From contig NZ_CP042430.1 of assembly GCF_007970665.1 (NCBI RefSeq), forward strand, positions 372,001 to 436,000: DNA of 64,000 bases, given 5' to 3'. Both the position numbers and the translations under genes were made by a program. The DNA comes from Baekduia soli. GTDB taxonomy: Bacteria; Actinomycetota; Thermoleophilia; Solirubrobacterales; Solirubrobacteraceae. This document shows positions 1 through 46,343 of the stretch, one piece after another; within the stretch, counting starts at the first letter, position 1; every line of letters starts with the position of its first letter. Below the pieces are notes generated by a model, which was not told the origin of the DNA, made no database searches, and worked only from the letters and a program-made list of their open reading frames with translations.

Positions 1-1
1 C

Positions 2-528: not shown

Positions 529-535
529 CCGCTCC

Positions 536-930: not shown

Positions 931-984
931 ACGCGACCCGAGGGCCGTCGAGCCATCGGTGCCCCCTGACCCGTCGGACTGATA

Positions 985-1075: not shown

Positions 1076-1236
1076 TGACGGAGGGGGGTTGCGCCAGCGC
1101 GCGTCGGCGCGGATGTCCGGGTCTCGGCCATCGCGGCGCGGGAAGCTCGAGCGGCTTGGGTGTCGCGCCACGCGGCCGCGTGGGCCGCTGCGGCGGTGGG
1201 CAGCATCGGGGAGCCGAGAGGCCTCCTCGTCTGCCG

Positions 1237-1677: not shown

Positions 1678-1707
1678 TGCGACAGCAACACTACGCAGGT
1701 TGCCTGA

Positions 1708-1724
1708 TATCAGTCAACCTGATA
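1708..1724. promoter_or_regulatory. Probable MarR operator (inverted repeat)
   Basis: TATCAG-N5-CTGATA is a perfect 6-bp inverted repeat and sits 30 bases upstream of the marR start codon in an AT-richer patch. Further CTGATA half-sites lie at 1704-1709 and about 1738-1743. Size and symmetry fit MarR-type operators, and the position suggests autorepression. Confidence 0.65.
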
Positions 1725-1990
1725 CAATCTCAGCATGCCTGATATGCAGAGGGTGGTCGTGCGGAGCGCACCGATGGCGGTGACGTTGTCTCCTCCGCTG
1801 CACCGCTGCGGCGGATCGTGGCCAACATCAACGCGTAGGTCACACGCACGACGGATCCGATGATGCGATCCGGCTCACCGTCGCACGAGGTGACGACCGA
1901 TGCGCTCGACGTCTCGGCCTACACGGTCTCCACCGGTCGGACGATCACCCAGTCGGCCAAGCAGAAGCTCCAGCAGCTCCTGCCCGACCG
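1725..1990. other. Intergenic stretch without a clear gene
   Basis: From the operator to the aldose epimerase start I see no convincing gene. A 43-codon plus-strand frame (1863-1994) ends in an ATGA overlap with the epimerase start and could be the tail of a deleted gene or a leader peptide, but its sequence is not recognisable. Confidence 0.4.
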
Positions 1991-2914: not shown

Positions 2915-2920
2915 CGGACG

Positions 2921-4630: not shown

Positions 4631-4728
4631 TCGCCGCGCCGCTCCGGCCGTCCCCGTCACGCCGCCCATCGCCCGCGCCTCGGACACCCGAGAGCGCGCC
4701 CCATCCACCGCACAAGAGGAAACAGCAG

Positions 4729-5730: not shown

Positions 5731-7523
5731 CCGCGCCGACAGCGTCCCAGACCGCCGCCCGCGCCCAGCGTCCACACGTCCTGCGCGAGTACGCGCTGTT
5801 GGCCGACGGCGAGCGGGGCGTTCTCGTCGGCCCCCGCGGTGACTTCGTCTGGATGTGCTTCCCGCGCTGGGACTCCGGCGCGGTGTTCTCCTCCCTGATC
5901 GGTGGTTCGGGTGCGTACGCGGTGACGCCGAGGGACCGGTGCGTGTGGGGTGGCTACTACGAGCCTGGGAGTCTGATCTGGCGCAGTCGATGGGTCACCG
6001 ACGATGCGACGATCGAGTGCCGCGAGGCGCTCGCGCTGCCCACTCGTCCCGACCGGGCAGTGATCCTGCGCCGGGTGATCGCCAGGCAAGGGACTGCCCG
6101 GGTCGACGTCGTACTCGACCCGCGGGGGGACTTCGGCAAGCACGCGCTGCGCAGGCTCTCCAAGGCCGATGACGGCACCTGGACCGGGGAACTTGACGGC
6201 GCTCACCTGTGTTGGGTCGGAGGCCAGGGAGCCCGCCCGCAGGCCGATGGCCACGGCGGGAAGGCTCTGACCCTCACGCTGGAGCTCGCCGAAGGAGCCC
6301 ACCACGACTTCGTCCTCGTCCTGGCCGCCGAGGCTTCCGACTGCGCCCCTCCGGATCCCGAATGGGCCTGGCAGGGCGTGGAGGCAGCATGGCGTGACCG
6401 CGTGCCCGAGCTGGAGCGCACCAGCGCGCCGCGCGACAGCCGCCACTCCTACGCGGTGCTCTCAGGGCTGACGAGCGCCGGCGGCGGAATGGTCGCCGCG
6501 GCCACCACCTCCCTGCCTGAGCGCGCCCGCCAGGGCCGCAACTATGACTACCGCTACGTGTGGATCAGGGACCAGTGCTACGCCGGCCAGGCGGTCGCCA
6601 AGGCGGGGCCGTACCCGCTCATGGATGACGCGGTTCGCTTCGTCGCCGAGCGGCTGCTCGCCGATGGTCCCCAGCTCAAGCCCGCCTACACCACCACCGG
6701 CGCCGCCGTCCCCGACCAGCGTCAGCTCGACCTGCCCGGGTACCCAGGTGGATCCGACATCGTCGGCAACTGGGTCAATGGGCAATTCCAGCTCGACGGC
6801 TTCGGCGAGGCGCTGCTCCTGTTCGCCGCCGCAGCGCGTCATGACCACCTCGACGCCGACGGCTGGCGCGCCGCCGAGTCCGCGATCGGGGCCATCGAGC
6901 AGCGCTGGCGCGAACCTGACACCGACGCGGGGATCTGGGAGATCGATCCCGACGCCTGGACGCACAGCCGCCTGATCTGCGCCGCCGGGCTACGGCAGAT
7001 CGCGCAATGCGGGCCTGGCGGGGAGCAGGCCGCCCGCTGGGTCTCACTCGCGGACATGATCGTCTCAGACACCGCGGCGCACGCCGTCCACCCCTCCGGA
7101 CGTTGGCAGCGCTCGCCAGGGGACGTGCGCGTGGACGCGGCCCTGCTGCTGCCTGCCATCCGCGGCGCGATCCCGGCCTCCGACCCCCGCTCCATCGCCA
7201 CGCTCCAAGCCGTCGCCTCAGAGCTCACCCAGGACGGCTACTGCTACCGCTATCGCCCTGACGAACGGCCGCTGGGAACATCAGAAGGTGCGTTTCTGCT
7301 CTGCGGCTTCCTGATGTCGCTGGCGTACACCCAACAGGGCGACCACGTCAGCGCCGCCCGCTGGTTCGAACGCAACCGTGCCGCCAGCGGACCTCCCGGC
7401 CTCTACTCAGAGGAGTTCGACGTCACCCAGCGCCAGTTGCGCGGCAACCTCCCGCAAGCGTTCGTCCACGCGCTGATGCTCGAATGCGCGCTCACCCAAT
7501 ACGGCGACCTGGACCTGCCGTGA
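5727..7523 (+). CDS. Glycoside hydrolase family 15 protein (glucoamylase/trehalase-like)
   Basis: This 598-residue enzyme belongs to the bacterial GH15 group: an N-terminal beta-sandwich (about 20-230) and an (alpha/alpha)6 barrel. Visible signatures are YDYRYVWIRD (273-282), WVNGQFQLDGFGE, E405 in DAGIWEI (general acid) and E562/E563 in GLYSEEFD (general base). Relatives release glucose from alpha-glucans or cleave trehalose. There is no signal peptide, so it acts on internal glucan or trehalose. The start is chosen at the ATGA overlap with the SDR; upstream in-frame sequence is antisense-like. The C-terminus overlaps the next gene by one base (TGATG). Confidence 0.93.
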   Translation: MTAPTASQTAARAQRPHVLREYALLADGERGVLVGPRGDFVWMCFPRWDSGAVFSSLIGGSGAYAVTPRDRCVWGGYYEPGSLIWRSRWVTDDATIECREALALPTRPDRAVILRRVIARQGTARVDVVLDPRGDFGKHALRRLSKADDGTWTGELDGAHLCWVGGQGARPQADGHGGKALTLTLELAEGAHHDFVLVLAAEASDCAPPDPEWAWQGVEAAWRDRVPELERTSAPRDSRHSYAVLSGLTSAGGGMVAAATTSLPERARQGRNYDYRYVWIRDQCYAGQAVAKAGPYPLMDDAVRFVAERLLADGPQLKPAYTTTGAAVPDQRQLDLPGYPGGSDIVGNWVNGQFQLDGFGEALLLFAAAARHDHLDADGWRAAESAIGAIEQRWREPDTDAGIWEIDPDAWTHSRLICAAGLRQIAQCGPGGEQAARWVSLADMIVSDTAAHAVHPSGRWQRSPGDVRVDAALLLPAIRGAIPASDPRSIATLQAVASELTQDGYCYRYRPDERPLGTSEGAFLLCGFLMSLAYTQQGDHVSAARWFERNRAASGPPGLYSEEFDVTQRQLRGNLPQAFVHALMLECALTQYGDLDLP

Positions 7524-7858
7524 TGAGGCTCCCCGCGATCCGGGCGACCTGGGGTGCCGCATTGCTGCTCGCCCCCGACGTCGTGCTCGGCATCATCGGC
7601 CAGGGCCGCGTGGACACTCGCACGCGCCGCGTGACCCAGGTACTCGGCGGACGGGAGCTCCTGCAAGGACTTCTGGCCTCACGACACTGCTCGCGATCCT
7701 GGGTGCTGAGGGGCGCGGCGGTCGACGGCACGCACGCCGTCACGATGCTCGCGTTGGCAGTCCGGCGCCCCGCGTCTCGACGGCCGGCAACGGCCAGCGC
7801 GCTCGCCGCCACGAGTCTCGCCGTGGCCGGGGTCGTCAGAGGTCGCCGGGTGCCCTGA
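7523..7858 (+). CDS. Small membrane protein of unknown function
   Basis: A 111-residue protein whose ATG overlaps the stop of the GH15 gene (TGATG). It has a hydrophobic N-terminal stretch (ATWGAALLLAPDVVLGIIG), a central Arg-rich part (VDTRTRRVTQVLGGRELLQGL) and a C-terminal Ala/Val-rich segment, so two to three membrane segments are plausible. I do not recognise a family beyond small DUF-type membrane proteins. The coupling suggests co-expression with the GH15 enzyme. Confidence 0.6.
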   Translation: MRLPAIRATWGAALLLAPDVVLGIIGQGRVDTRTRRVTQVLGGRELLQGLLASRHCSRSWVLRGAAVDGTHAVTMLALAVRRPASRRPATASALAATSLAVAGVVRGRRVP

Positions 7859-7945
7859 CCGCGCTCGGCCGCGGGTGACCGCAGACGCGGGCGTGATGCC
7901 GGTGGGCTGCCCGCTCACGGAGCCCCATGTCCCTGGGAGCGCCCG

Positions 7946-8178
7946 GACGTCGTCAACGACACGGCCGGCCACGAGAACGGTGACCTGCTCCTGGCCGACG
8001 TGGCACGGGCCATGACGTCGACGATGCGCTCCCGCGTGCCACGATCAGCGCCGGCCTGGCCGAGCTCGACGAGGACCACGCGCCCGACGCCCCCGATGAC
8101 ACGCTCACCACCCTCGTCAGGCGTGCCGACGAGGCGCTCCTCCCCGCCGAGCACCGCCGTCCGCGTAGCTCACGGTGA
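7946..8178 (+). pseudogene. GGDEF diguanylate cyclase remnant with internal deletion
   Basis: Two GGDEF pieces in different frames are joined. The first (from 7946) reads DVVNDTAGHENGDLLLADVARAM, the helix that precedes the GGDEF loop. The second (8041-8178, ending in a stop) reads TISAGLAELDEDH and then LVRRADEALLPAEHRR, the C-terminal strand and helix. The GGDEF loop between them has been deleted, so it is inactive. It resembles the other c-di-GMP remnants near the start of the window. Confidence 0.72.
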
Positions 8179-8267
8179 CTGGCGCGCGGCACCGTCCATC
8201 ACCAGCTCGCTCGTCGGACTCCCGGATCGGCCGCCGACCGGCCTTCGCCAGGCCCGGAGATGCGGGA

Positions 8268-8927
8268 CTAGTCCACCAGCACCGTCGGCTCGGAGGCGTC
8301 GAGGAACGTCCTCACGGCCGGTCGCACCAGGTAGTTGGCGTACTGCATCGACCGGGTGTAGATCTTGTCGTAGTTCTTCTGGTCGGGATCGGTGCCGTCG
8401 TAGTCGGAGGACCCGGGGAACTGCTCGGCGTACTTCTGGTATCCGGCAACCGCCAAGTAGGCGACGTTGTCGATCAGCATGTCCTTGGCGATCTCCGGAA
8501 ACACCCTCGGGTCATCAGCCACAGCGGTGAGCGCCCGCCGGCCGCGAGTGGTGAAGCGTCGATAGTGCCAGTCGATGTACTTGGCCACGACGGTGGGCGG
8601 TGAATGCAGGCCAACGGGCAGGCACACCATGGCCTGCACGAGACGCGGCTGGATCATGACCGCCGATTGGCCCGGGACTCCCCAATCGATGTCGTACAAC
8701 TTGCCGACATCCGCCCGGAATTCGTCGCAGGAGACGACCTTGACGTGCAGGTCCGGGAACGGGCTGCCGAATCCCATGTCGTTCCGCTGCGTGTAGGTGG
8801 GCCTGTGGGAGATGTAGGCGGCCGAGATCGGATTGAACCCGTAGTCGAGCGTCGCGTCCCAGGTCATCCTGAGCGCACCCGTGTCGAACATGCTCTCTCG
8901 CGCAAGACCTCTATGCAGATCCGTCAT
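8268..8927 (-). CDS. Hypothetical protein, 219 residues
   Basis: Codon use in this frame looks genuine and the protein is less Ala/Arg-rich than antisense frames, with many aromatic residues (for example ISHRPTYTQRNDMGFG, YIDWHYRRF, SDYDGTDPDQKNYDKIYTR). No signal peptide, membrane helix or catalytic motif stands out. I do not recognise a family. It stands alone between decayed regions, and its slightly lower GC content could indicate acquisition by transfer. A start at Met13 is also possible. Confidence 0.6.
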   Translation of the reverse strand: MTDLHRGLARESMFDTGALRMTWDATLDYGFNPISAAYISHRPTYTQRNDMGFGSPFPDLHVKVVSCDEFRADVGKLYDIDWGVPGQSAVMIQPRLVQAMVCLPVGLHSPPTVVAKYIDWHYRRFTTRGRRALTAVADDPRVFPEIAKDMLIDNVAYLAVAGYQKYAEQFPGSSDYDGTDPDQKNYDKIYTRSMQYANYLVRPAVRTFLDASEPTVLVD

Positions 8928-9377
8928 CGTTCCCGATCCTCGTCGACGACATCGGCCACAGCATAAAGGCCTGCTCGCGCCGTACAGCGCGCACGCCCTC
9001 AGGCCTTCTCGGTCTGCAGGAGCCGCTCGCGGCGGGCGAGCCGGTGATCGGTCCAGCGGCGGACCTTGACCTCGAACCGGCAGGGGGCGCCGCCGCCTCG
9101 GAGAGATCCGTCCCGATCCCGATCGCCTGGCGTAGCTCGACGGCGAGCTCCTCGAGGCGCTCGGAGCACCGCCGAGGGGTCAGACGTTCACCGCCTTGGT
9201 CTTCTTCATGTCGTCGAACCGGGCGGCCCCGTCCGCGGTCATGTCGTCGCAACCAGCATCGTCGCCGACGGGGGCCCGGGATGGCCCGGATGCCACGCGA
9301 ACGGGCCGGGGCCCGATTTCGCGCGCGTGATCTGACAGCCCGCCCTGCGGGCGCCACCGGATGGGTACGGCGGGCCT
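8928..9377. other. Decayed intergenic region
   Basis: No intact gene is visible in these 450 bases. On the minus strand, 8999 to about 9185 gives a plausible C-terminus in two frames: ERLEELAVELRQAIGIG, then after a one-base shift RFEVKVRRWTDHRLARRER and a stop at 8999. Just upstream (9180-9239, minus) another frame ends in FDDMKKTKAVNV. These look like the broken end of one or two genes I cannot name. Confidence 0.35.
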
Positions 9378-10448
9378 GTGTCCCAGCTCGCCACACCATG
9401 GTTGGTGCTGATCTTCGGTCTCGGCGCCGCTGCGGTCTGGGTCGCCGGCATCCATCTGTCGCGCCAGACCGACGTGCTCGCGACACGGCTGCATCTGGGA
9501 TCGGCGCTCGGCGGCCTGCTCCTCCTCGCGCTGGCGACCAACCTGCCGGAGATCGCGATCGTCTGCAGCGCCGCGCTCTCGGGCGACGTCGGCGTCGCCG
9601 TCGGCAACATCCTGGGCGGAATCGCCATCCAGACCGTCGTGCTGGTCGTCCTCGACGTGTTCGGGGTCAGCGCCGGGCGCCCCCTCACCTACCGCGCGGC
9701 GTCGCTCGTCCTGGTCGTGGAGGGGCTGGCCGTCATCGGCGTGCTCGCCACGGTGGTGGGCGGCACGCAGCTGCCCGCCGGCGTGATCGTCTGGCGCTTG
9801 ACCCCCGAGTGCGTGCTGATCGCCGTGCTGTGGCTGGTGAGCCTGCTGCTGGTCCAGCGCGCCGGGCGCGGCCTGCCCTGGCACGAGGCCGGCCAGCCGC
9901 CGGACGGCCAGAAGCCTGAGCGCGGCCACCGCCGCCGCAGGACCGAGCAGACCGCCACCCAGAAGGGCATCAGCACAGCCCGGGCCGCCGGCATCTTCGC
10001 CGCCGCGGCCGCCGTCACGCTGATCGCCGGCATCGTCCTGGAGCGCAGCGGCGAGGCGATCGCCGGCCACATCGGCCTGTCCGGCGTGCTCTTCGGCGCG
10101 ACGGTCCTGGCGGCCGCAACGTCACTGCCGGAGGTCTCTACCGGCCTCACCTCGGTCAGGCAGGGCGACTACCAGCTGGCCGTCAGCGACATCTTCGGCG
10201 GCAACGCCTTCCTCCCGGTGCTGTTCCTGCCGGCCACGCTGCTCTCCGGCAAGGCGGTCCTGCCCCGGGCCAGCGACACCGACATCTACCTCACCGCCGT
10301 CGGCATCGTGCTGACCACCGCCTACGTGACCGGGCTGCTGTTCCGTCCCACGCGTCGCGTCGCACGGATGGGCGTCGACTCCCTGGTCGTGCTGGTCCTC
10401 TACGCCCTGGCCCTGGCGGGGCTCTTCGCGATCAGCGCGGCCGCCTGA
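9378..10448 (+). CDS. Sodium/calcium exchanger (CaCA) family membrane protein
   Basis: A 356-residue membrane protein with the two inverted alpha-repeats of the CaCA superfamily: ALATNLPEIAIVCSAALSG with GNILGGIA in the first half, and AAATSLPEVSTGLTSVRQG with SDIFGGNAF in the second. The conserved glutamates of both repeats, which bind cation, are present. About ten membrane helices surround a charged central loop (residues about 170-195). It probably exchanges Ca2+ or another cation for Na+ or H+. The GTG start gives a normal N-terminal helix. Confidence 0.88.
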   Translation: MSQLATPWLVLIFGLGAAAVWVAGIHLSRQTDVLATRLHLGSALGGLLLLALATNLPEIAIVCSAALSGDVGVAVGNILGGIAIQTVVLVVLDVFGVSAGRPLTYRAASLVLVVEGLAVIGVLATVVGGTQLPAGVIVWRLTPECVLIAVLWLVSLLLVQRAGRGLPWHEAGQPPDGQKPERGHRRRRTEQTATQKGISTARAAGIFAAAAAVTLIAGIVLERSGEAIAGHIGLSGVLFGATVLAAATSLPEVSTGLTSVRQGDYQLAVSDIFGGNAFLPVLFLPATLLSGKAVLPRASDTDIYLTAVGIVLTTAYVTGLLFRPTRRVARMGVDSLVVLVLYALALAGLFAISAAA

Positions 10449-29547: not shown

Positions 29548-29976
29548 TCACAACCTCCTCGTCGATGTCAGACCCGCGCGGTGCACCGCGCGCTCCAGCA
29601 GGTCGTGCTCCACGACGGCCGCGTCGCGCAGCCCGGCGCGCAGCCGCGTCAGCGCGGCGCCCTCGCCGCCGGCGTGCAGCGGCTCCACCGCGGCGTCGAG
29701 CGCCACCAGCAGCTCGCGGTTGCGGCGCAGCAGGTCGCCGGCGGCCAGGTCGGCCGCGGCGCCCGGGGCCACGTCGCGCAGGGTGGACTCCAGGATGGCG
29801 TTCGTCCGCTCCAGCGCCGCGAAGAGCTCGGGCCACGCGGCGCCGATCTCGCCCACGATCAGCGCGATCGCGTCGACCTGCTGGCCCAGGAACCCGTCGT
29901 CGACCACGGGGCGGATCTCGGTCTCCAGGACCTCGGCCGACCGCTGCAGGATGCGCCCGAGCGTGTCAAAGAACAC
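29548..29976 (-). CDS. Hypothetical helical protein, 142 residues
   Basis: Almost entirely helical by composition: TLGRILQRSAEVLETEIRPV, VGEIGAAWPELFAALERT and LRRNRELLVALDAAVEPLH. No cysteine or catalytic motif is visible. It overlaps the upstream kinase-like gene by 11 bases and ends two bases before the CrtC-like gene, so it belongs to that operon. Family not recognised, but the company of a phosphotransferase-like protein suggests an accessory subunit. Confidence 0.7.
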   Translation of the reverse strand: MFFDTLGRILQRSAEVLETEIRPVVDDGFLGQQVDAIALIVGEIGAAWPELFAALERTNAILESTLRDVAPGAAADLAAGDLLRRNRELLVALDAAVEPLHAGGEGAALTRLRAGLRDAAVVEHDLLERAVHRAGLTSTRRL

Positions 29977-31090
29977 CGCGGCCCGCCTCGTAGGCCTCGA
30001 TCTGCGCCGTGAGCAGACGCGTGACCTGGTTGAGCTTCTTGTAGCCGGTGGCCATGCGCATGTCTCCGTCCCACTCGGCGATGCTCGGCAGGCCGATCGT
30101 GAGCGTCCACGTGTGGAACAGCAGCGCGTAGACCACGTAGTAGTGCAGGCGTCGGCGGTCGACGGTGCGCTCGGAGGCCGCCTCGTAGTAGGCGATGAGG
30201 TCGTCCAGCGGCGCGAGCATGGCCATCAGGTCGGGCCGCGGCTCGCGCATCGCGGGATGGCACGCGTAGCCGAGGTCCTGCAGCGGGTCGCCGACCATCG
30301 CGCCCTCCCAGTCCAGGAAGGCGACGATGCGCTCGTCGCGCCAGATGAAGTTGCCCACCTTGAAGTCGCCGTGGATGAGCACCATGTCGTCCGGGTCGCC
30401 GTCGGGCGCGTGCTCCTGGCACCAGCGCGCGGCATCGCGGAAGATGGGGTGCGGCACCCAGTCGGCCATGCGGTGCGCAGCGGTCGCGAGCATGTGCTCG
30501 ATGAGGGCGTGCAGGCGCTCGGGCTCCCGCGGGCGCGGCCCGGAGGCCAGCGCGGCGAAGCGCTCGAAGCGGCGCCAGTCCACGCGCTGCGCGGCACCAA
30601 GCACCCCCATGAACTGCCGGGCCATGTTCGCGCGGCGGGCCGGGTCGATCCACTCGTCGCGCTGCATGAGCGTGCGGTAGTCGGGGACCTCGCCGTCGAT
30701 GTACTCGAGCACCGCGAACGGGCGCCCGGCCACGGCAAGGTCCGCGCAGGTGCCCAGCACCCGCGGGACGGGGACGCCGGTGTCCGCCAGGCCGGCGTAG
30801 ACCGCGGCCTCGCCGAGCACGTCGTAGGGCTCGACCGGCCCGCGCAGCGGCTGGCGGCGCAGCACGAACCGGGCGCGGCGGTCCTGCGGGTCGGCGGGGT
30901 CCTCGGCGTCGACGATCCACGTCTCGTACGAGACCCCGCCCGAGGTGCGGGCCAGCGCGGTGAAGCGTGCGGCCGACCAGTCCGGCGTGACGTGCTCGAC
31001 CAGCCAGGCGCCGATCCGGTCCAGGCGATCACCGGCGCGCAGGTCGTCGCGGCGCGCGGGCGGGTCATCCGATGTCGTCGAGGACATCAT
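29966..31090 (-). CDS. Aminoglycoside-phosphotransferase-fold protein (ACAD10-like)
   Basis: A 374-residue kinase-fold protein: ARTSGGVSYETWIVDA, RRQPLRGPVEPYDVLGEAAV, LEYIDGEVPDYRTL, catalytic loop LIHGDFKVGNFIW and metal-binding FLDWEGAMVGDPLQDLGY. This group (APH/ACAD10-like) phosphorylates small hydroxy substrates such as 4-hydroxy acids or sugars. The ATG at 31090 is chosen; ATG 31108 is an in-frame alternative. It is the first gene of the three-gene operon, divergent from the nitronate monooxygenase gene across an AT-rich spacer. Confidence 0.88.
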   Translation of the reverse strand: MMSSTTSDDPPARRDDLRAGDRLDRIGAWLVEHVTPDWSAARFTALARTSGGVSYETWIVDAEDPADPQDRRARFVLRRQPLRGPVEPYDVLGEAAVYAGLADTGVPVPRVLGTCADLAVAGRPFAVLEYIDGEVPDYRTLMQRDEWIDPARRANMARQFMGVLGAAQRVDWRRFERFAALASGPRPREPERLHALIEHMLATAAHRMADWVPHPIFRDAARWCQEHAPDGDPDDMVLIHGDFKVGNFIWRDERIVAFLDWEGAMVGDPLQDLGYACHPAMREPRPDLMAMLAPLDDLIAYYEAASERTVDRRRLHYYVVYALLFHTWTLTIGLPSIAEWDGDMRMATGYKKLNQVTRLLTAQIEAYEAGRGVL

Positions 31091-31192
31091 CCGGGCTCTA
31101 TCTATCATGATGATTCGCCACGCTGCAACCGCGGGCCGGCGGCAGGCGCGGCGCCCGTGGACATCCGTCGCCGCGGGAGCGACGATGCGGCG

Positions 31193-32248
31193 ATGACCGT
31201 CCTCGAGCAGCTGGAGCTCCCCATCGTCGGCGCGCCCATGGCCGGCGGCCCGTCGACCCCGGAGCTGGCGGCCGCGGTCAGCGAGGCCGGCGGGCTGGGG
31301 GTGCTCGCCGCCGGCTACCTGACGGCCGGGCAGATGGCCGAGCGCCTCGCGGCTGTGCGGGTGCTGACGGCACGGCCGATCGGGGTCAACCTGTTCGCCG
31401 CCGGCGGCGCGCGTGCCGACCCCGCGCTCGTCGCCCGCTACGCGGCGCGCCTGGCGCCGGAGGCGCAGCGGCTCGGCGTCGAGCTCGGCGCGCCGCGCTT
31501 CGACGACGACGACCTGGAGGCCAAGGTCGACCACCTGTGCGCCGAGCCGGTCGCGGTCGTGTCGTTCACGTTCGGCCTGCCCTCCGGCGAGGTGGCCGCG
31601 CGGCTGCGGGCCGCCGGCTCGGAGCTGTGGGCCACCGTGACGGCTCCCGACGAGGCGCAGCGGGCCGCCGCGCTCGGCGTCGACGCGCTGGTCGTCCAGG
31701 GCGTCGAGGCCGGCGGCCACCGGGGCGTCTTCTGCGACGACGAGCACGCCGCCGACGTGACGCTGCTGGCGGCGCTGCAGCTCGTCGGCGCCGGGGTCGA
31801 CCTGCCGCTCGTGGCGGCCGGCGCGCTGATGACCGGCGGCGCCGTCGCGGCGGTGCTCGCGGCCGGGGCCGCCGCGGCCCAGCTCGGCACGGCCTACCTG
31901 CGCACGCCGGAGGCCGGCACGTCGCCCGTCCAGCGTGCGGCCACCGCGCAGGACGCGCCCACCGTGCTCACCCGCGCCTTCAGCGGCCGGACCGCGCGCG
32001 GCATCGTCAACCGCCTGCACGCCGAGCACGGCGCCCACGCGCCGAGCGCCTACCCCGAGATCCACCACGTCACCGCGCCGCTGCGGGCGCGGGCCCGCGC
32101 CCAGGGCGACGGCGAGGTGATCAACCTCTGGGCCGGCCAGGCCCACGTCCTGGCCCGCGACCTGCCGGCCGCGCAGCTGACGCGGGCGCTGGCCGACGAG
32201 GCACGCGCCGCGCTGGCCCGGGCCGGGAGGCGCCTGGGCGAGGGATGA
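31193..32248 (+). CDS. Nitronate monooxygenase family protein
   Basis: A 351-residue FMN TIM-barrel protein (2-nitropropane dioxygenase family): PIVGAPMAGGPSTPELAAAV at the N-terminus, VVSFTFGLP, VVQGVEAGGHRG and LVAAGALMTGG, which hold the FMN phosphate. These enzymes oxidise alkyl nitronates such as propionate-3-nitronate, although enoyl-reductase-like relatives share the motifs. Length is normal. Confidence 0.9.
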   Translation: MTVLEQLELPIVGAPMAGGPSTPELAAAVSEAGGLGVLAAGYLTAGQMAERLAAVRVLTARPIGVNLFAAGGARADPALVARYAARLAPEAQRLGVELGAPRFDDDDLEAKVDHLCAEPVAVVSFTFGLPSGEVAARLRAAGSELWATVTAPDEAQRAAALGVDALVVQGVEAGGHRGVFCDDEHAADVTLLAALQLVGAGVDLPLVAAGALMTGGAVAAVLAAGAAAAQLGTAYLRTPEAGTSPVQRAATAQDAPTVLTRAFSGRTARGIVNRLHAEHGAHAPSAYPEIHHVTAPLRARARAQGDGEVINLWAGQAHVLARDLPAAQLTRALADEARAALARAGRRLGEG

Positions 32249-38261: not shown

Positions 38262-39284
38262 ATGCCCTCCCGAGCCGAGACCGAGGACGTGCCCGACGGC
38301 GCCCAGGCGTTCTGGCTCCGCGCGCCCGGCCACGGCGAGATCCGGCCCGTCGCGCTGCCCGAGCCGGGCCCCGGCGACGTCGTCGTGCGGACGCTGCGGT
38401 CCGGCGTCAGCCGCGGCACGGAGGCGCTCGTGTTCCGCGGCGGCGTGCCCGCCGGCCAGCGCGCCGCGATGCGCGCGCCGTTCCAGGAGGGCGACTTCCC
38501 GGGCCCCGTGAAGTACGGCTACCTCAGCGTCGGGAGCGTGCGTCACGGCCCGCCGGAGCTGCTGGACCGCACGGTCTTCTGCCTGTATCCGCACCAGACG
38601 GCCTACGTCGTGCCCGCCGGCGCGGTGACCGTCGTGCCCGACGACGTGCCGCCGGCGCGCGCGGTGCTGGCGGGCACCGTCGAGACGGCGGTCAACGCGC
38701 TGTGGGACGCGCCGCCGCTGGTCGGCGACCGCGTCGCCGTCGTCGGCGCGGGGATGGTGGGCTGCTGCGTCGCGCGGCTGCTCGCCCGGTTCCCGGCGGT
38801 GCAGGTCACGCTCGTCGAGGTCGACGCTGCGCGGGCCCCGGTCGCGGCCGCGCTGGGCGTCGGGTTCGCCGCGCCGCAGGACACCGCGGGCGGCTGCGAC
38901 CTCGTCGTGCACACGAGCGCCACATCGGCCGGCCTGCAGACCGCACTGGACCTGCTCGCCCCCGAGGGCACCGTGCTGGACCTGAGCTGGTACGGCGACG
39001 CCGAGGTCCGGCTCTCGCTGGGCGGCGCGTTCCACGCCCGCCGCCTGGGGATCCGGGCCAGCCAGGTCGGGACGGTCTCCCCGGCCCGCAGCGCGCGCCG
39101 CGGCACGGGCGCCCGGCTGGCGCTCGCGCTCGACCTGCTGCGCGACCCGGCGTTCGACGCGCTGGTGACCGGCGCGTCGCACTTCGACGAGCTGCCCGCG
39201 GTCATGCCGCGGCTGGCCGACGGGAGCCTGCCGGCGCTGTGCCACACCATCACCTACGACGGGACCGGCCCATGTTCAGCGTGA
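38262..39284 (+). CDS. Zinc-type alcohol dehydrogenase-like protein (cluster gene 1)
   Basis: A 340-residue MDR-fold protein. It has the GroES-like N-terminal domain ([35 protein letters not shown]) and a Rossmann domain [19 protein letters not shown]. The usual catalytic zinc Cys/His set and the structural zinc loop are missing, as in the bacteriochlorophyllide-reductase BchC-like and 'theronine dehydrogenase-like' group. It probably oxidises or reduces an alcohol in building the head group. Starts at 38226 and 38289 are alternatives. Its end overlaps the next gene by 13 bases. Confidence 0.85.
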
Positions 39285-39670
39285 CGATCCGCGACCACAT
39301 GATGATCGCCCACAGCCTGCGGGGCGCGACGTTCGGGCCCGCGCAGCGGCTGCACGGCGCGACGTACGTCGTCGACGCCACGTTCCGCCGCGCGACCCTG
39401 GACGAGGACGGGATCGTCGTCGACATCGCCCGGGCGGCCGGCGCGCTGCACGTCGTGGTCGCCGAGCTGGGCTACCGCAACCTCGACGACGAGCCCGCCC
39501 TGGCCGGCCTGAACACCACGACCGAGGAGCTCGCCCGGGTCGTCGCCGACCGGCTCGCCGACCGCGCCGCAGCCGGTGACCTCGGCGACGGCGGGCGCCG
39601 TCTCGACGGGCTCGCCGTGACCCTGCACGAGTCCCATGTCGCGTGGGCCGGCTACGAGCGGTCGCTGTGA
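39272..39670 (+). CDS. 6-pyruvoyltetrahydropterin synthase/QueD-fold protein lacking canonical catalytic residues (cluster gene 2)
   Basis: A 132-residue T-fold protein. H14 (MIAHSL) and H28 (RLHGATY) align with zinc ligands, but the third ligand of the usual LHGH motif is Ala30, the catalytic Cys that precedes it is missing (FGPAQRLHG), and the Asp-His pair is replaced in ELGYRNLDD (G67, Y68). E120 in LHESHVAWA keeps the substrate-anchoring glutamate. So it may bind a pterin-like ring but should not perform the standard QueD/PTPS reaction. It is embedded by overlaps between the dehydrogenase and glycosyltransferase genes. Confidence 0.85.
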
Positions 39671-40734
39671 CGGAGGTCCACGTCATCGTCCCGGAGGGCA
39701 TCGACGACCCGGCGCGGCCCAGCGGCGGCAACACCTACGACCGCCAGGTGTGCCGGGAGCTCGCCGCGCGCGGCACGGCCGTGCGCGAGCACCCCGTCGC
39801 CGGCGCCTGGCCGCGACGCGACGCGAGCGGGCACACCGCGCTGGCGCACGCCCTGCAGCGGATCCCCGACGGCGCCGTGGTGCTGCTCGACGGGCTCATC
39901 GCCTGCGCCGCCCCCGAGATGCTCGTGCCGCAGGCCGGGCGGCTGGCGCAGGTCGTGCTCGTCCACATGCCGCTCGGCGACCGTCCGCCGGAGGGCGAGG
40001 CGGCCGCGGTGCGCGCACGCGAGCACGCCGTCCTGGCGGCGGCGGCCGCCGTCGTGACGACGAGCGCCTGGAGCCGGCGCCGGCTGGCCGAGCTGTACGC
40101 GCTGCCGGCCGGACGGGTGCACGTCGCCGAGCCCGGCGTCGAGGAGGCCGACCTCGCGCCCGGGACGGAGGCCGGCGACGCGCTGCTCTGCGTGGCGGCC
40201 GTCACGCCCGGCAAGGGCCACGACGTGCTGCTCGACGGGCTGGCGGCCGCCAAGGACCTCCCCTGGCGCTGCTCGTGCCTGGGCAGCCTGGTCTGCGACC
40301 CGGCCTTCGCCGACAGCGTGCGGCGCCGCGCGCGGGCCGGCGGGCTGGGCGACCGCGTGCGCTTCCCGGGCCCGCGCACGGGCCCGCAGCTGCAGCGCGC
40401 CTACGCCGCCGCGGACCTGCTCGTGCTCGCCTCGCACGCCGAGACCTACGGGATGGTCGTCACGGAGGCCCTGGCCCGCGGCGTGCCGGTCCTGGCCACC
40501 GACGTCGGCGGCGTGCCGGAGGCGCTCGGCCATGCCGACGACGGCACGCGGCCGGGCCTCCTCGTCGCTCCCGGCGATCCGGCCGCCCTCGGCACCGCGC
40601 TGCGGGCCTGGCTCCTGGACGACGGGCTGCGCCGCCGCCTGCGGCGAGCCGCGCGCCGGCGGCGCGCCGCGCTGCCCCGGTGGCCCGACACCACCGCCGT
40701 CGTGGCCGGCGTCCTGGCGGAGGCCCGCCGGTGA
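39667..40734 (+). CDS. Glycosyltransferase family 4 protein (cluster gene 3)
   Basis: A 355-residue GT-B enzyme: [17 protein letters not shown] at the acceptor side, [32 protein letters not shown], and the donor site [20 protein letters not shown] with the E-x7-E pattern of GT4. It is cytoplasmic, so it glycosylates an intermediate on the inner face of the membrane. The GTG start overlaps the QueD-fold gene stop (GTGA). Confidence 0.92.
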
Positions 40735-41552
40735 GCGCGACGGGCATCCGGGTCAGCCCCGAGTGGCTCGTGCTGCGCGAGCCCGCCGACGCGGCGGCGC
40801 GCTCGGCGCGCCTGGCCGGGCGCCTCGCGCGCCACCTCCCCGCCCGCGGCGGGCTCGCCATCCACGACCTCGGCGGCGGCAGCGGCGCCATGGGCCGCTG
40901 GCTGGCGCCCCGCCTGCCCGGCCCTCAGCACTGGATCGTGCACGACCGCGACGCCGACCTCCTGGACCTCGCCGTTGCGCACCCCCCAGTCCCGACCGCC
41001 GACGGCCCGGCGGTCACCACGGAGGCGCGGCGAACCGACCTCGCCCGGCTCGGGCCGGCGGACCTCGCGGGCGCCGATCTCGTCGTCGCCTCCGCGCTGC
41101 TGGACATCCTGGGCGCCGGCGAGCTGGCCGCGATGCTCGACGCCTGCACCGCGGCGGCGTGCCCGCTGCTGCTCGCGCTCACCGTGGTGGGTCGCGTCGC
41201 CCTGAGCCCGGCCGACGACCTGGACGCACACATCGCCGCCGCGTTCGACGCCCATCAGCGCCGCAGCACGCCGGGTGGACGCCTGCTCGGGCCAGACGCG
41301 GTGGCGGCGGCCACCGCGCACCTGCGGGCCGCGGGCGCCGAGGTCCTCAGCGACCCGAGCCCGTGGCGCCTGGGCGCGGCCCAGGCGGACCTCGCGGCCG
41401 AGTGGCTGCGCGGGTGGGTCGCCGCCGCCTGCGAGCAGGAGCCCGCGCTGACGGTCCCCGCCGGCGCCTACCTCGATCGCCGCCTGGCCCAGGCGGCCGC
41501 CGGCGGGCTGGCCGTGATCGTCGACCACGCCGACGTGCTGGTGCTGCCGTGA
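40731..41552 (+). CDS. Class I SAM-dependent methyltransferase (cluster gene 4)
   Basis: A 273-residue protein with SAM motif I IHDLGGGSGAMGRWLA, acidic motif II WIVHDRDADLL and post-motif VVASALLDILGAGELAAML. The C-terminal part (LRGWVAAACEQEP, AGAYLDRRLAQA) is probably the acceptor-binding lobe. It should methylate a cluster intermediate. GTG start overlaps the glycosyltransferase stop (GTGA). Confidence 0.88.
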   Translation: MSATGIRVSPEWLVLREPADAAARSARLAGRLARHLPARGGLAIHDLGGGSGAMGRWLAPRLPGPQHWIVHDRDADLLDLAVAHPPVPTADGPAVTTEARRTDLARLGPADLAGADLVVASALLDILGAGELAAMLDACTAAACPLLLALTVVGRVALSPADDLDAHIAAAFDAHQRRSTPGGRLLGPDAVAAATAHLRAAGAEVLSDPSPWRLGAAQADLAAEWLRGWVAAACEQEPALTVPAGAYLDRRLAQAAAGGLAVIVDHADVLVLP

Positions 41553-42523
41553 CGTGGGCGCGCCTGACGGCGACGGCGGCGATCCTCGCCGTCCTGGTCT
41601 GGCGGCTGGGCACGGACCCGTTCCTCGACGGCCTGCGCACCGTCGACGGCGGGGCGCTGGCGGCCGCGGCCGGGCTGGCCATGCTCACCACGGTGTGCTG
41701 CGCGTGGCGCTGGCGGATCGTGGCGCGCGGCCTGGGCGTCGAGCTGCCCATGGGCGCAGCGGTGGCCGCCTGCTACCGCTCGCTGTTCCTCAACGTCGCG
41801 CTGCCCGGCGGCGTACTGGGCGACGTGCACCGCGGCATCAGCCACGGCCGCGACACGGACGACGTCGGCCGCGGGCTGCGCGCCGTGGCCTGGGAGCGCG
41901 CCGCGGGCCAGGCCGTGCAGGCCGTCCTCACCGTCGTGCTGCTCCTCGTCCTGCCCTCACCCGTGCGCCCGGCGATGCCGCTCGTCGCCGCCGGGCTGGT
42001 CGCCGCGGTGGCGATCGTCGTCGTGGCGGCGCGGGCGCGGCCCGGCGGCGAGGGCCCGACCCGGTGGGCGCGGCTGCGGCGTGCGGCGGCCCGCGACCTG
42101 CGCGCCGGCCTGTTCGCGCGGCGCGCCTGGCCGGCCATCGTGGTGGCGTCCGCGCTGGTCGTCGCCGGCCACGCCGCCACGTTCCTGATCGCCGCCCGTA
42201 CCGCCGGTGCAGGCGCACCGCCGTCGCGGATGCTGCCGCTGGCGCTGCTCGTCCTGCTCGGCGCGGCGCTGCCCAACGTGGGCGGCTGGGGGCCGCGCGA
42301 GGGCGTGACCGCCTGGGCCTTCGCCGCGGCCGGCCTGGGCGCGCCGCGCGGGGTGGCCACCGCGGTCGTCTACGGCGTGATGGTGCTCGTCGCCGGCCTG
42401 CCGGGCGCCGCGGTCCTCGTCGTCGCCTGGGCGCGCCGCGCCCGGCCGGCGCCGGCGATCGAGCGGACCGTGCGCGGCGGGCTCGTCGTCCCCGCGCGAC
42501 CGGAGGGAGTCCCGGATGCCTGA
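41549..42523 (+). CDS. Lysylphosphatidylglycerol-synthase-type flippase-like membrane protein (cluster gene 5)
   Basis: A 324-residue integral membrane protein of the AglD/MprF N-terminal (UPF0104) type, with about eight helices. The conserved loop SLFLNVALPGGVLGDVHRG and the later GAALPNVGGWGPREGVTAW are the family signatures. In MprF this module flips lysyl-PG; here it could flip the glycosylated lipid product. It overlaps genes on both sides (4 and 8 bases). Confidence 0.9.
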   Translation: MTWARLTATAAILAVLVWRLGTDPFLDGLRTVDGGALAAAAGLAMLTTVCCAWRWRIVARGLGVELPMGAAVAACYRSLFLNVALPGGVLGDVHRGISHGRDTDDVGRGLRAVAWERAAGQAVQAVLTVVLLLVLPSPVRPAMPLVAAGLVAAVAIVVVAARARPGGEGPTRWARLRRAAARDLRAGLFARRAWPAIVVASALVVAGHAATFLIAARTAGAGAPPSRMLPLALLVLLGAALPNVGGWGPREGVTAWAFAAAGLGAPRGVATAVVYGVMVLVAGLPGAAVLVVAWARRARPAPAIERTVRGGLVVPARPEGVPDA

Positions 42524-43205
42524 GCGTCCCTACACCATGCTGAGCTGCAGCGTGTCGCTGGACGGCTACCTCGGCGACCACACGCCGCGCCTGGCGCTGT
42601 CCAACGCCGCCGACTTCGACCGGGTCGACGAGGTGCGCGCGTCGTGCGACGCGATCATGGTCGGCGCCGTCACGGTGCGCACCGACAACCCGCGCCTGCT
42701 CGTGCGCTCGGCGGCGCTGCGCGACGGGCGCACCGCCCGCGGGCTGCCGTCGTCGCCGATGAAGATCACCGTGACCGAGCGGGCCGACCTCGACGCGCGC
42801 TCGCGCTTCTTCGCCACCGGCGAGGCCGAGAAGCTCGTGTACACCTCGACGGCCCGCGTGCGCAACGCGTGCGCGCGGCTCGGCCCGGTGGCGACGATCG
42901 TCGACGGCGGCCCCCGCGTGCGGATGCGCCGGCTCAGCGAGGACCTCGCCGACCGGGGTGTGCAGCGGCTCATGGTCGAGGGCGGCGGCGTCGTGCACAC
43001 CCAGTTCCTGGCCGACGACCTCGTCGACGAGCTGCAGCTCGTCATCGCCCCGCTGTTCGTCGGCGACTCCAGCGCGCCGCGCTTCGTGACCGACGGGCGC
43101 TTCCCGTGGCACGCGGGGCGGCGCGCCACGCTGGCCGAGACGCGGCAGATCGGCGACGTCGTCCTCCTGCGCTACGCGCTGTCCCCGCGGTTCGAGGACC
43201 GATGA
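42516..43205 (+). CDS. RibD C-terminal/dihydrofolate-reductase-fold reductase (cluster gene 6)
   Basis: A 229-residue reductase domain like the C-terminal half of RibD: MLSCSVSLDGYLGD, CDAIMVGAVTVRTDNPRL, RLMVEGGGVVHTQFLADDLV and DELQLVIAPLFVGD. The fold reduces the ribose of a pyrimidine intermediate with NADPH in riboflavin synthesis, and dihydrofolate in DHFR. There is no deaminase domain and no other riboflavin gene nearby, so a cluster-specific substrate is likely. Confidence 0.9.
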   Translation: MPERPYTMLSCSVSLDGYLGDHTPRLALSNAADFDRVDEVRASCDAIMVGAVTVRTDNPRLLVRSAALRDGRTARGLPSSPMKITVTERADLDARSRFFATGEAEKLVYTSTARVRNACARLGPVATIVDGGPRVRMRRLSEDLADRGVQRLMVEGGGVVHTQFLADDLVDELQLVIAPLFVGDSSAPRFVTDGRFPWHAGRRATLAETRQIGDVVLLRYALSPRFEDR

Positions 43206-43971
43206 TCGCGGCGCGCGCGCACGCCAGCCGGACGGGCCCGGCGGCCGGGCTGCTCGCCCAGGTGCTCCTGCTGGCCGTCCTGGCGGGGACCGCCGGGCTC
43301 GGCGTCGCCGGCTGCCTGGCCGGCTCGGCGTGCGCGCTGGCGGTCGCCGCGGCGCTGGCTTGCGGCCTCGCACGCCGCCCGGGCGAGCGCCTCGGGCCGG
43401 CGTCGTGGGTGACGCTGGCACGGGCCACGCTGGCCGTCGGCGTCGCCGCCCTGGCGGTCGACGCGCTGGCGCACGACCCGCCCGTCGCGGTCGTCGTCGC
43501 ACTGGCCGCCGTCGCGCTCGTGCTGGACCTCGTCGACGGCGCGGTCGCGCGGTTCAGCGGGACGGCGACGACGCTCGGCGCGCGCTTCGACGGAGAGGTC
43601 GACGCGCTGCTCATCCTGGCCCTGTGCGTCTACGTCGCGCCGGCCTACGGCGCGTGGGTGCTCGCGGGGGCGCCGCGCGCTACGCGTTCGCCGCCGGCGA
43701 GTGGCTGGCGCCGTGGATGCGCGCACCGCTGCCGCGGCGCCTGTGGCGCCGCGTCGCGGCGGCGACCCAGGGCCTCGTGCTGACGGTGGCGGCCGCCGGG
43801 GTGCTGCCGCGCGGGGTCATGCAGGCCGTCCTGGCCGCGGCGCTCGTCCTGCTGGCCGCCTCGTTCGCCGATTCGGTGCGGTGGCTGTGGCGCCGCCGGC
43901 ACGTCGCTCCCGGCGAGCCCGTCCCGGAGGTCACGGGCGGGGACCGAGGCGCCCCGTCCGCGCGCGGGCCG
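43202..43971 (+). CDS. CDP-alcohol phosphatidyltransferase, with frameshift (cluster gene 7)
   Basis: The full CDP-OH-P motif is present: D109, D112, G113, A116, R117, G126, D130 and D134 (DLVDGAVARF then GARFDGEVD). It joins an alcohol to a CDP-activated lipid or polyol, releasing CMP. After the G5 run at 43666-43670 the frame is lost by one base; the next frame continues convincingly (RYAFAAGEWLAPWMRAPLP, then GLVLTVAAAGVLPRGV). In that second frame there is no stop before the LtaS-like gene, so either the two are fused or a stop was lost. Without correction the protein would end at 43783. Confidence 0.85.
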
Positions 43972-43989
43972 CTGCGCACGGCCATCGCG

Positions 43990-45579
43990 GTGGCGCTCAC
44001 CGTGCTCGCCCTCCTGCTCACCTGGGCCGCCTCGGTCGCGCCGCAGCAGCCGAGCCTGCTCACGCCCGGCGCGTTCGCGCGGGTCCCGCTGGAGCTCCTG
44101 GTCCTCGTCGCGCTGGCCGTCCTGCTGCCCGCCCGCCCACGCCGCGCGCTCGCCGTCGTCGCGGGCGTGCTGCTGAGCGCGCTGGTGCTCGTGACGATCC
44201 TCGACCTGGGGTTCTTCACCGCGTTCGACCGGCCGTTCAGGCCCGTCGACGACTCGGGCTACCTGGGCATCGGGATCGAGACGCTCCGCGACGGGGCCGG
44301 ACGGTCCTACGCCGACCTCGTCGTCGCCGGCGCCGCGCTCCTCGGCGTCGTCCTGCTCGCCATCCCGGTGCTGGCCCTGCTGCGCGTGACCCGGGTCGCG
44401 GCCGACCACCGCCCGGTGGTCCTGCGCGCCGCCGCCGTGCTCGGCGTCCTGTGGGTCGTCCTGCGGATCGCCGGCGCGCCGGCGGCCTCCTCGAGCGCCG
44501 CCTCCCTGGCCGTGCGGGAGGTGCACCTCGTGCGCACCGGCCTGGCCGACCGCGCCGTGCTCGCCCGGCAGATCGCCCACGACCGCTTCCGCGCCACGCC
44601 GGGCGACCGGCTGCTCACCGGCCTGTGCGGCAAGGACGTCCTGCTCGTGTTCGTCGAGAGCTACGGCCGTGTCGCCCTGCAGGGCTCGTCGTTCTCGCCC
44701 GGCGTCGACGCCGTCGTGAACCGCGGCACCGCGCAGCTGCGGGCCGCCGGGTTCGCGGCGCGCAGCGCGTTCCTCACCTCGCCGACGTTCGGCGGCCTGA
44801 GCTGGCTGGCGCACTCCACCCTGCAGTCGGGCGTCCGCGTCGACGGCCAGCGGCGCTACGACCAGCTCGTGGCCCAGGACCGCCTCACGCTCACCGCGGC
44901 GTTCCGGCGCGCCGGGTGGCGGACGGTCGGGATCATGCCCGCCAACCACCGGGCGTGGCCGCAGGGCTCGACGTTCTACCACTACAACCAGGTCTACGAC
45001 CGGCGCAACCTCGGCTACCGCGGCCCGGGCTTCGGGCTGCCGCCCATGCCCGACCAGTACGCGCTGGCCGCCCTGCAGCGCCGCGAGCTGGCACCCCGCG
45101 ATCGCGCACCGCTCTTCGCCGAGGTCGACCTCATCTCGAGCCACGCGCCATGGACGAGCATCCCCCGGCTCGTCCCCTGGGACCAGGTCGGCGACGGCTC
45201 CGTCTTCGCCCGGATCCCGCCCGCGGCGACCTCGCGGGCCGCGCTCATCGGCGACTCCGCACGGGCCCGCAGGGCCTACGGGCAGTCCATCGAGTACTCG
45301 CTGGCCACCCTGATCTCGTTCGTGCGGCGTTACGGCGACGACGACACGGTTCTCGTCGTCCTCGGCGACCACCAGCCCGCCACGACCGTCAGCGGGCTGG
45401 GCGCCAGCCACGACGTCCCGATCTCGGTCATCGCCCACGATCCCGAGGTGCTGCGGCGGATCTCGGCCTGGGACTGGCAGGACGGCCTGCTGCCCGGCCC
45501 GCAGGCCCCGGTCTGGCCGATGGAGGCGTTCCGCGACCGCTTCCTGACCGCGTTCGGCTCGACGCCGGCGACGGGCTGA
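43990..45579 (+). CDS. Alkaline-phosphatase-superfamily (sulfatase/LtaS-like) membrane phosphotransferase (cluster gene 8)
   Basis: Four to five N-terminal helices are followed by an extracytoplasmic sulfatase-fold domain: DVLLVFVESYGR (metal-ligand Glu), FLTSPTFGGLSWLAHS (nucleophile region), LISSHAPWTS and LGDHQPATTVSG (metal-ligand Asp-His). Such proteins move phosphoglycerol or phosphoethanolamine onto envelope glycolipids, as LtaS and EptA do. GTG 43990 is the first start that leaves the helix intact, but the frame is open further upstream into the CDP-alcohol transferase, so a two-domain fusion is possible. Confidence 0.85.
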   Translation: MALTVLALLLTWAASVAPQQPSLLTPGAFARVPLELLVLVALAVLLPARPRRALAVVAGVLLSALVLVTILDLGFFTAFDRPFRPVDDSGYLGIGIETLRDGAGRSYADLVVAGAALLGVVLLAIPVLALLRVTRVAADHRPVVLRAAAVLGVLWVVLRIAGAPAASSSAASLAVREVHLVRTGLADRAVLARQIAHDRFRATPGDRLLTGLCGKDVLLVFVESYGRVALQGSSFSPGVDAVVNRGTAQLRAAGFAARSAFLTSPTFGGLSWLAHSTLQSGVRVDGQRRYDQLVAQDRLTLTAAFRRAGWRTVGIMPANHRAWPQGSTFYHYNQVYDRRNLGYRGPGFGLPPMPDQYALAALQRRELAPRDRAPLFAEVDLISSHAPWTSIPRLVPWDQVGDGSVFARIPPAATSRAALIGDSARARRAYGQSIEYSLATLISFVRRYGDDDTVLVVLGDHQPATTVSGLGASHDVPISVIAHDPEVLRRISAWDWQDGLLPGPQAPVWPMEAFRDRFLTAFGSTPATG

Positions 45580-45581
45580 CC

Positions 45582-46343
45582 GTGCGCCAGGACGACCGCG
45601 CGTGGTTCGACGACACGCTGCGGCGAGCGCGCCTGTCGGCCTACCCGCCGGGCGAGTTCGTCGGGCAGGAGAGCTTCATGACCGCCGGCGAGATCCGGGC
45701 CCTGGCGCTGCGCGCCGGCATCTCCAGCGGGGTCGCGGCCCTGGACCTCTGCTGCGGCGTGGCCGGGCCCGGGCGCTTCGTCACACGGGAGCTGGGCTGC
45801 GACTACCTGGGCGTGGACGCCAGCGCGAGCGCCCTCGCGGTCGCCCGCAGCCGCGCCGGCGACCTGCCGTGCCGCTTCGTCGTCGGCCAGGTCCCTGCGC
45901 TGCCGGCAGGCTCCTTCGACGTCGTGCTGCTGCTGGAGACCATGCTCGCGTTCGAGGACAAGGACGCCGTGCTGCGCGCGGTCGCCGCGGCGCTGGCGCC
46001 CGGTGGGCGCTTCGCGTTCACGCTGGAGGAGGGCGCGCCGCTCACGGCGGCCGAGCGGGAGGCGATGCCCGCCGCCGACACCGTCTGGCCCGCCCCGCTG
46101 GCCGAGGTCGCCGCGCTGCTGGAGGCCGCGGGGCTCGTGCTGACCTGGCAGGAGGATCGCAGCGCCGCGCACCGCGCGACCGCCCAGGCGCTGGCCGAGG
46201 CGTTCGCCGCCGACGCCGCGCACATCGCCGCCCAGCTCGGCCGCCGGGCGCTGGACGACCTGCTCGCCGCGCACCGCCTGTGGATCGACTGGCTGCGCAC
46301 GGGCCGGGTCCGCAAGCTCGCGCTCGTGGCCCAGCGGGCCTAG
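45582..46343 (+). CDS. Class I SAM-dependent methyltransferase (cluster gene 9)
   Basis: A 253-residue Rossmann methyltransferase: ALDLCCGVAGPGRFVTRELG (motif I with Cys pair), YLGVDASASALAVAR, SFDVVLLLETMLAFEDKD and APGGRFAFTLEEG. This group includes glycine- and small-molecule methyltransferases. GTG start two bases after the LtaS-like stop. It is the last gene of the cluster, before a hairpin. Confidence 0.9.
   Translation: MRQDDRAWFDDTLRRARLSAYPPGEFVGQESFMTAGEIRALALRAGISSGVAALDLCCGVAGPGRFVTRELGCDYLGVDASASALAVARSRAGDLPCRFVVGQVPALPAGSFDVVLLLETMLAFEDKDAVLRAVAAALAPGGRFAFTLEEGAPLTAAEREAMPAADTVWPAPLAEVAALLEAAGLVLTWQEDRSAAHRATAQALAEAFAADAAHIAAQLGRRALDDLLAAHRLWIDWLRTGRVRKLALVAQRA

Follow-up and report, generated by a model that had tools for sequence, protein, structure and literature searches.

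Gene organisation of the locus

We analysed a 64,000-nucleotide stretch of Baekduia soli DNA (contig NZ_CP042430.1, positions 372,001 to 436,000; hereafter the window, whose own numbering is used throughout), in which a gene set combining QueD/PTPS- and RibD-fold proteins with membrane-lipid-type enzymes had been predicted from the sequence alone. A codon-usage gene caller, inspection and Pfam searches confirmed this set at positions 38262-46343, all on the + strand. From the dehydrogenase (DH) to the fused gene described below, successive overlaps are 13, 4, 4, 4, 8 and 4 bases, within the range of the original prediction, and a 2-base gap precedes the last gene, MT2. It is well supported that the set represents a widespread, conserved actinobacterial cluster of the SCO6650-SCO6655 type. 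Its features are as follows.

38262..39284, + strand: DH, medium-chain dehydrogenase/reductase (MDR)-type dehydrogenase, nearest BchC (gene caller, NCBIfam)
39272..39670, + strand: PTPS, T-fold protein related to SCO6650, PDB 3D7J (Pfam, PDB sequence search)
39667..40734, + strand: glycosyltransferase of the family 4 (GT4) type (Pfam, NCBIfam, PDB search)
40731..41552, + strand: MT1, S-adenosylmethionine (SAM) methyltransferase fold (predicted structure)
41549..42523, + strand: LPGTM, flippase-like membrane protein, LPG_synthase_TM (Pfam)
42516..43205, + strand: RibD_C-type reductase (Pfam, NCBIfam, PDB search)
43202..45579, + strand: fused CDP-alcohol phosphatidyltransferase::LtaS-like gene, in two frames (Pfam, fusion in relatives)
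43666..43670, + strand: G5 run, apparent one-base slip of the fused gene's frame (two-piece match and inspection)
45582..46343, + strand: MT2, second methyltransferase (Pfam)

Gene ends are those of the caller, whose LtaS open reading frame ends at 45579; the CDP-alcohol frame, from 43202, was added by inspection. Apart from the fused gene, all are open frames with strong coding bias.

A CDP-alcohol phosphatidyltransferase fused to an LtaS-like domain

When an intact relative of the fused protein was used as a query, the window genome was matched in two pieces (residues 3-143 and 144-241) that meet at position 43669. The N-terminal part carries D-x2-D-G-x2-A-R-x8-G-x3-D-x3-D, the motif of CDP-alcohol phosphatidyltransferases, and the rest of the CDP-alcohol domain lies with the LtaS domain in another frame. 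Pfam recognised CDP-OH_P_transf (E=1.3e-7) and Sulfatase, the LtaS domain (E=6.3e-6, 26.1 bits against a cut-off of 25). Relatives have the fused protein in one uninterrupted frame. We conclude that a single gene, encoding a CDP-alcohol transferase joined to an LtaS-like domain, is split here by a one-base frame slip; all the domains originally predicted are present, but the cluster has eight genes instead of nine.

The slip may be either a sequencing error or a real lesion. The G5 run sits in a 2 kb stretch of 79% GC, and sequencing errors are common in such high-GC stretches. Programmed frameshifting at the run was considered and rejected: by eye there is no full slippery heptamer, and the fused frames of relatives are open without a shift.

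Among 44 LtaS homologues of related loci, the CDP-alcohol domain is fused in 22; gene calls run too long in 3 of these 22, and contig ends truncate some of the homologues. Across 16 fusions the D, D, G, R, G, D and D of the motif are invariant and the Ala is kept in at least 90%. Seven further loci from the class have LtaS-bearing genes of 764-1048 aa, candidates for the fusion; two of them (L154 and L158) are on contigs equal in length to those of L063 and L060 and are probable repeats of these. At the sequence motifs where the metal ligands of LtaS would be expected, Glu stands in 44/44, Asp in 43/43 and His in 42/43, and the putative nucleophile, assigned in the same way, is Ser and not Thr.

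The fusion of one relative, L051, was modelled (predicted local distance difference test (pLDDT) 76.6, predicted template modelling score (pTM) 0.57, 16 sequences). In fold searches, the best matches were LtaP/LtaS (Foldseek, 4uop, E=6.7e-8; in a second search covering mainly residues 450-792, Staphylococcus aureus LtaS 2w5q, Z 20.4, root-mean-square deviation 4.7, 284 aligned). The predicted ectodomain of this relative is of the alkaline-phosphatase-superfamily, LtaS-like type; it resembles LtaS in fold but differs in sequence, with 11-14% identity in the LtaS rows of the search, and in being fused to a CDP-alcohol transferase. That the enzyme attaching the head group is joined to the ectodomain transferring it is an argument for a single product common to the two, one that has to pass through the membrane. 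Close to the clusters of L051, L052, L053, L057 and L059 there is also a gene that, by eye, resembles acyltransferase-3.

Conservation of the cluster in Actinomycetota

The GTDB genome collection was scanned with an alignment of three RibD proteins; at least 400 relatives were confirmed, and the best 80 were kept and their genes called. These loci come from Thermoleophilia, Nocardioides, Catellatospora, Micromonospora, Actinoplanes, Humibacillus, Arthrobacter and others. Counts use the 40 loci with about 10 kb of flank on each side (full-flank loci), with a gene scored anywhere in the flanks and shorter, cut loci excluded; their lineages are non-independent and, since the loci were picked by RibD, the frequency of RibD itself is meaningless. 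DH and PTPS were each found in 38 of the 40, GT4 and LPGTM in 39, and the CDP-alcohol gene in 38, fused in 8 of them; GCH2 (GTP cyclohydrolase II) was present in 33, MT1 in 22 and MT2 in 6. One locus (L083) has no called PTPS or DH, and RibD stands alone in L130 and in three shorter loci (L110, L114 and L119).

The gene set is syntenic across many genera and is not a chance assembly, and the expected co-occurrence of PTPS-fold, RibD-fold and CDP-alcohol genes across Actinomycetota was borne out by this survey, as was the suggestion of homologous neighbourhoods in other actinobacteria. The window itself has the syntenic DH, PTPS, GT4 and LPGTM genes together with a CDP-alcohol gene that define the SCO6650-type cluster. 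Sigma-factor-like and zinc-finger anti-sigma-like genes were seen by eye near the clusters of L066, L069, L074, L079, L081, L083, L084, L097, L101 and L106, mostly Nocardioides.

As a separate entry, 296 genomes of the phylum were searched with PTPS. The core was found in G204 and in five genomes that we call Streptomyces-type (the PTPS of one is, by eye, near-identical to SCO6650), and in part in G008 and G028. Eight genomes had a CDP-alcohol match at E<=1e-20, all of them within the nine with PTPS at E<=1e-30; these thresholds were picked after the lists were seen, and one of the eight (G204) is the genome from which the query came. In the ninth, G028, the cluster is on a 3.8 kb contig, and in G008 the CDP-alcohol and PTPS genes are on separate contigs. 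Weaker CDP-alcohol matches occurred in five other genomes, the best in G246 (7e-14).

Within the class, 14 of 299 genomes have PTPS at E<=1e-20, the window's included, and the other 13 all lie outside its family; a PTPS search of three congeners gave no match. This patchy distribution suggests horizontal transfer or repeated loss. Between-locus divergences of the genes are correlated (r 0.27-0.82), a pattern that could also come from shared ancestry alone.

A PTPS-fold subfamily without the catalytic residues

The window PTPS contains PF01242 (E=7.5e-23), and its sole solved relative at E<=0.001 is SCO6650 (PDB 3D7J, phmmer E=5.5e-55). Catalysis by QueD and PTPS uses Cys, Asp and His residues plus three zinc-binding His. 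In an alignment of 68 homologues with the window protein, the catalytic Cys site and the third zinc His site are Ala in all 67 rows that have a residue there; the catalytic Asp is retained in 1 of 69 and the catalytic His in none. Glu120, which we take to be the residue that holds the pterin ring (2-amino-4-oxo) in PTPS, is invariant (69/69). The predicted QueD/PTPS fold therefore stands, with domain and anchoring Glu, but the residues for the known chemistry are lost, and the family appears from its sequences to be a coherent subfamily with changed chemistry. To our knowledge, SCO6650 is without PTPS activity.

The adjacent DH falls under every curated cut-off of Pfam and NCBIfam, its best NCBIfam model being BchC (E=2e-13). 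A GVSRGTE stretch lacks Cys at a place where zinc MDR enzymes usually have it.

RibD, GTP cyclohydrolase II and the housekeeping pathways

RibD_C (PF01872) matches the window RibD at E=2.7e-38, well over its cut-off. The best NCBIfam model is TIGR01508, the archaeal reductase of 2,5-diamino-6-ribosylamino-pyrimidinone phosphate (DARPP), at 7.2e-41; in a PDB search the top entry was an unnamed 'Conserved protein' (5xv5) and the first named reductase was DARPP reductase 6p8c (1.5e-22). The protein thus shares a domain family with the archaeal-type DARPP reductase but differs in scoring under the TIGR01508 cut-off (139.7 bits against 186.45), and it is a different RibD that neighbours the sole GCH2 of this genome. 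Pfam found no deaminase domain in the window RibD; the 2-amino group would therefore stay, and we infer a product that is pterin-like rather than flavin-like.

The single GCH2 match of the window genome lies about 2 kb from the strongest of eight RibD_C matches. This pair, at 3.04 Mb and about 2.6 Mb from the cluster, looks like a riboflavin operon; the window RibD, another of the eight, is not the one paired with GCH2. Since the only GCH2 adjoins the other RibD, the GCH2 step would be shared in this genome. The original prediction of a self-contained pathway consequently fails, the gene present in 33 of 40 relatives being missing here.

In relatives, the presence of GCH2 suggests the starting substrate. 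A YLR(Q/GH)EGR stretch of the active site is kept in 71 of 74 GCH2 proteins and finds no match in 3 (the 74 include five from an unlinked Streptomyces-type locus and two probable repeats). A Tyr change through which one S. coelicolor GCH2 would form formamidopyrimidine (FAPy) found no support in the GCH2 sequences examined.

Two FolE and one FolB are encoded elsewhere in the genome. QueC gave no match at E<=0.001 in this assembly (estimated completeness 95.55%), in a search whose control was positive in 12 of 14 genomes, 11 of them over the cut-off. With the RibD-GCH2 pair, FolE and FolB elsewhere, QueC not found and the PTPS triad lost, roles in queuosine, folate and riboflavin synthesis were set aside; these genome checks speak for the non-housekeeping role that had been supposed for the QueD and RibD homologues.

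Glycosyltransferase, methyltransferases and membrane protein

Glycos_transf_1 matches the window GT4 at E=1.3e-27. Its best NCBIfam model is the mycothiol glycosyltransferase MshA, but at 83.5 bits against a cut-off of 462.5; the best PDB matches, 3c4q and 3c48, are titled 'Predicted glycosyltransferases' and are presumably MshA as well. LPGTM has an LPG_synthase_TM domain (E=2.4e-25) and MT2 a Methyltransf_25 domain (E=2.2e-13). MT1 scores under its Pfam cut-off (E=0.001), and its predicted structure (pLDDT 92.4) matches SAM methyltransferases, structure searches returning generic methyltransferases only.

Variant clusters

In the five Streptomyces-type genomes the order is DH-PTPS-GT4-MT1-LPGTM-GCH2, as in the SCO6650-SCO6655 region with its related PTPS, whereas the window cluster has RibD, the LtaS fusion and MT2 and is without GCH2 and a creatininase-family gene. 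The latter occurs in all five Streptomyces-type clusters (Pfam-tested in one) and had no match at E<=1e-6 in the other loci compared; among NCBIfam models, mycofactocin MftE scores best and the FAPy deformylase of archaea, which belongs to the creatininase family, matches at 3.7e-9, both below cut-off. Away from the cluster, the same five genomes have a second locus (L149-L153) in which a RibD relative of 375-383 aa lies beside a cluster-like GCH2 and a regulator; in L149, tested with Pfam, RibD is fused to a C-terminal deaminase domain, in reversed domain order, and the regulator belongs to the MarR family.

Going by gene order, the S. coelicolor numbers are SCO6651 for GT4, SCO6652 for MT1, SCO6653 for LPGTM and SCO6654 for the creatininase-family gene. 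In PMC2853524, SCO6655 is named GTP cyclohydrolase II and its expression correlates with predicted flux at -0.61 (-0.52 for SCO2687, another GCH2), a value that fits, weakly, a role outside riboflavin synthesis. SCO6652 is listed under unknown function in PMC3610822, with log2 values of 0.8, 4.3 and 4.1 for second over first mycelium, or about 17- to 20-fold at the two later stages if the columns follow another table there; this is a hint that the likely MT1 acts in aerial and sporulating mycelium.

Genomes of a further family, f18 (L040, L042-L047 and L050), have a reduced cluster, RibD-DH-PTPS-GT4-MT, next to a folB-like gene. Their PTPS proteins keep the zinc His residues and have likewise lost the triad. 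GT4 and MT appear to be fused in L042, L045 and L047 (Pfam-tested in L042). Since f18 is without the lipid genes nearby, the lipid step would not be universal and the basic product may be soluble.

Proposed pathway and alternatives

Building on the observed conservation, domain identities, active-site loss, fusion and genome-level co-occurrence, we propose a pathway in which each substrate, the order of the steps and the action of all enzymes on one molecule are what we infer. GCH2, from the gene beside the other RibD in the window genome and from the in-cluster gene in most relatives, would open GTP to DARPP, and reduction by the cluster RibD would turn its ribosyl into a ribityl chain. The resulting pyrimidine or pterin would be bound and remodelled by the PTPS-fold protein together with DH, glycosylated by GT4 and methylated by MT1. 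Phosphatidyl from CDP-diacylglycerol would then be placed on the polyol or sugar by the CDP-alcohol domain, giving a phospholipid whose head group is novel; the flippase-like protein would carry it outward, and the fused LtaS-like domain would pass the phospho-head group to an acceptor outside. To this whole working, in which a pyrimidine or pterin is glycosylated and methylated, joined to lipid, flipped and passed on outside the cell, we give a probability of roughly 0.4. More tentatively still, the product might be a class of envelope phosphoglycolipid not known before, with a GTP-derived pyrimidine or pterin head group branching off the first riboflavin steps, which the LtaS-like fusion transfers or polymerises outside. 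A literature search, with coverage short of most subscription journals, found no described product for the cluster, in line with the original prediction.

Several observations weigh against the proposed pathway. Neither the window cluster nor 7 of the 40 full-flank loci, L130 with its lone RibD included, contain GCH2, and the divergence of GCH2 follows that of the other genes weakly (r 0.27-0.48, with 0.65 for RibD). RibD is missing from the five Streptomyces-type clusters, a 53-57% relative lying elsewhere with another GCH2, and had no match at E<=0.001 in G008. LtaS occurs in just 24 of 40 loci; f18 genomes show no nearby flippase-like gene and no CDP-alcohol match at E<=1e-6; and G246, a congener of the Streptomyces-type genomes, has no PTPS among its listed matches. 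As for the fused gene, its CDP-alcohol half is frame-slipped in the window, the L051 model is middling in confidence, Pfam Sulfatase found no match in the L051 fusion at E<=0.001, and other phosphotransferases lie nearly as close to the model (EptC Z 19.1, GacH 18.9; EptA and BcsG-type enzymes are also close behind LtaS, the others standing at 18-19).

The f18 clusters, with folB alongside and no CDP-alcohol relative at that threshold, would be explained if the product were a soluble glycosylated, methylated pterin or pyrimidine, such as a cofactor, pigment or redox molecule comparable to the pterin glycosides, with the membrane genes serving export or a later add-on. We consider this unlikely, if the strongest of the alternatives, given that CDP-alcohol and flippase-like genes are found in 38 and 39 of the 40 full-flank loci and that the CDP-alcohol gene is retained, though unlinked, in G008. 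The LtaS fold, the CDP-alcohol fusion, GT4, the flippase-like protein and the loss of the PTPS triad would also suit a glycosylated phosphoglycolipid akin to lipoteichoic acid, for which GCH2, RibD and the PTPS fold had been recruited to act on a sugar or polyol and not on a pterin; the conserved GCH2 active-site stretch, the frequency of GCH2 among the loci and the invariant ring-anchoring Glu make this a distinctly less probable account. It is improbable, too, that the cluster is non-functional in this strain, which would be compatible with any reading for the relatives: the two-piece match at 43669 points that way, but every other gene is an open frame with strong coding bias and the slip falls in error-prone sequence. 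A spare branch of riboflavin, F420 or folate synthesis, with the membrane genes as unrelated neighbours, could draw on the RibD and GCH2 homology and on the folB gene adjoining the f18 cluster; set against the other RibD-GCH2 pair, FolE and FolB genes of this genome and the conservation of the membrane genes in nearly all full-flank loci, it is very improbable.

If the proposed lipid pathway is correct, many Actinomycetota would link riboflavin-branch chemistry with the synthesis of membrane lipids, 3D7J, a solved structure of unknown function, would gain a pathway, and there would be a new envelope component.

Surroundings of the cluster

A promoter and terminator scan, of a kind poorly suited to such GC-rich DNA, found none. 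The flanking genes scanned have general metabolic and regulatory functions (glutamate synthase-like, TPP enzyme, epimerase, enoyl-CoA hydratase, SDR, AMP-binding, biotin carboxylase, thiolase and other proteins), which sets the cluster apart from its surroundings. Window positions 1-10000 have a GC content of about 0.69-0.72, against 0.71-0.80 in the remainder, and are possibly foreign DNA. The gene at 29966-32038 encodes a protein of 690 aa whose C-terminal half contains an APH-type phosphotransferase domain.

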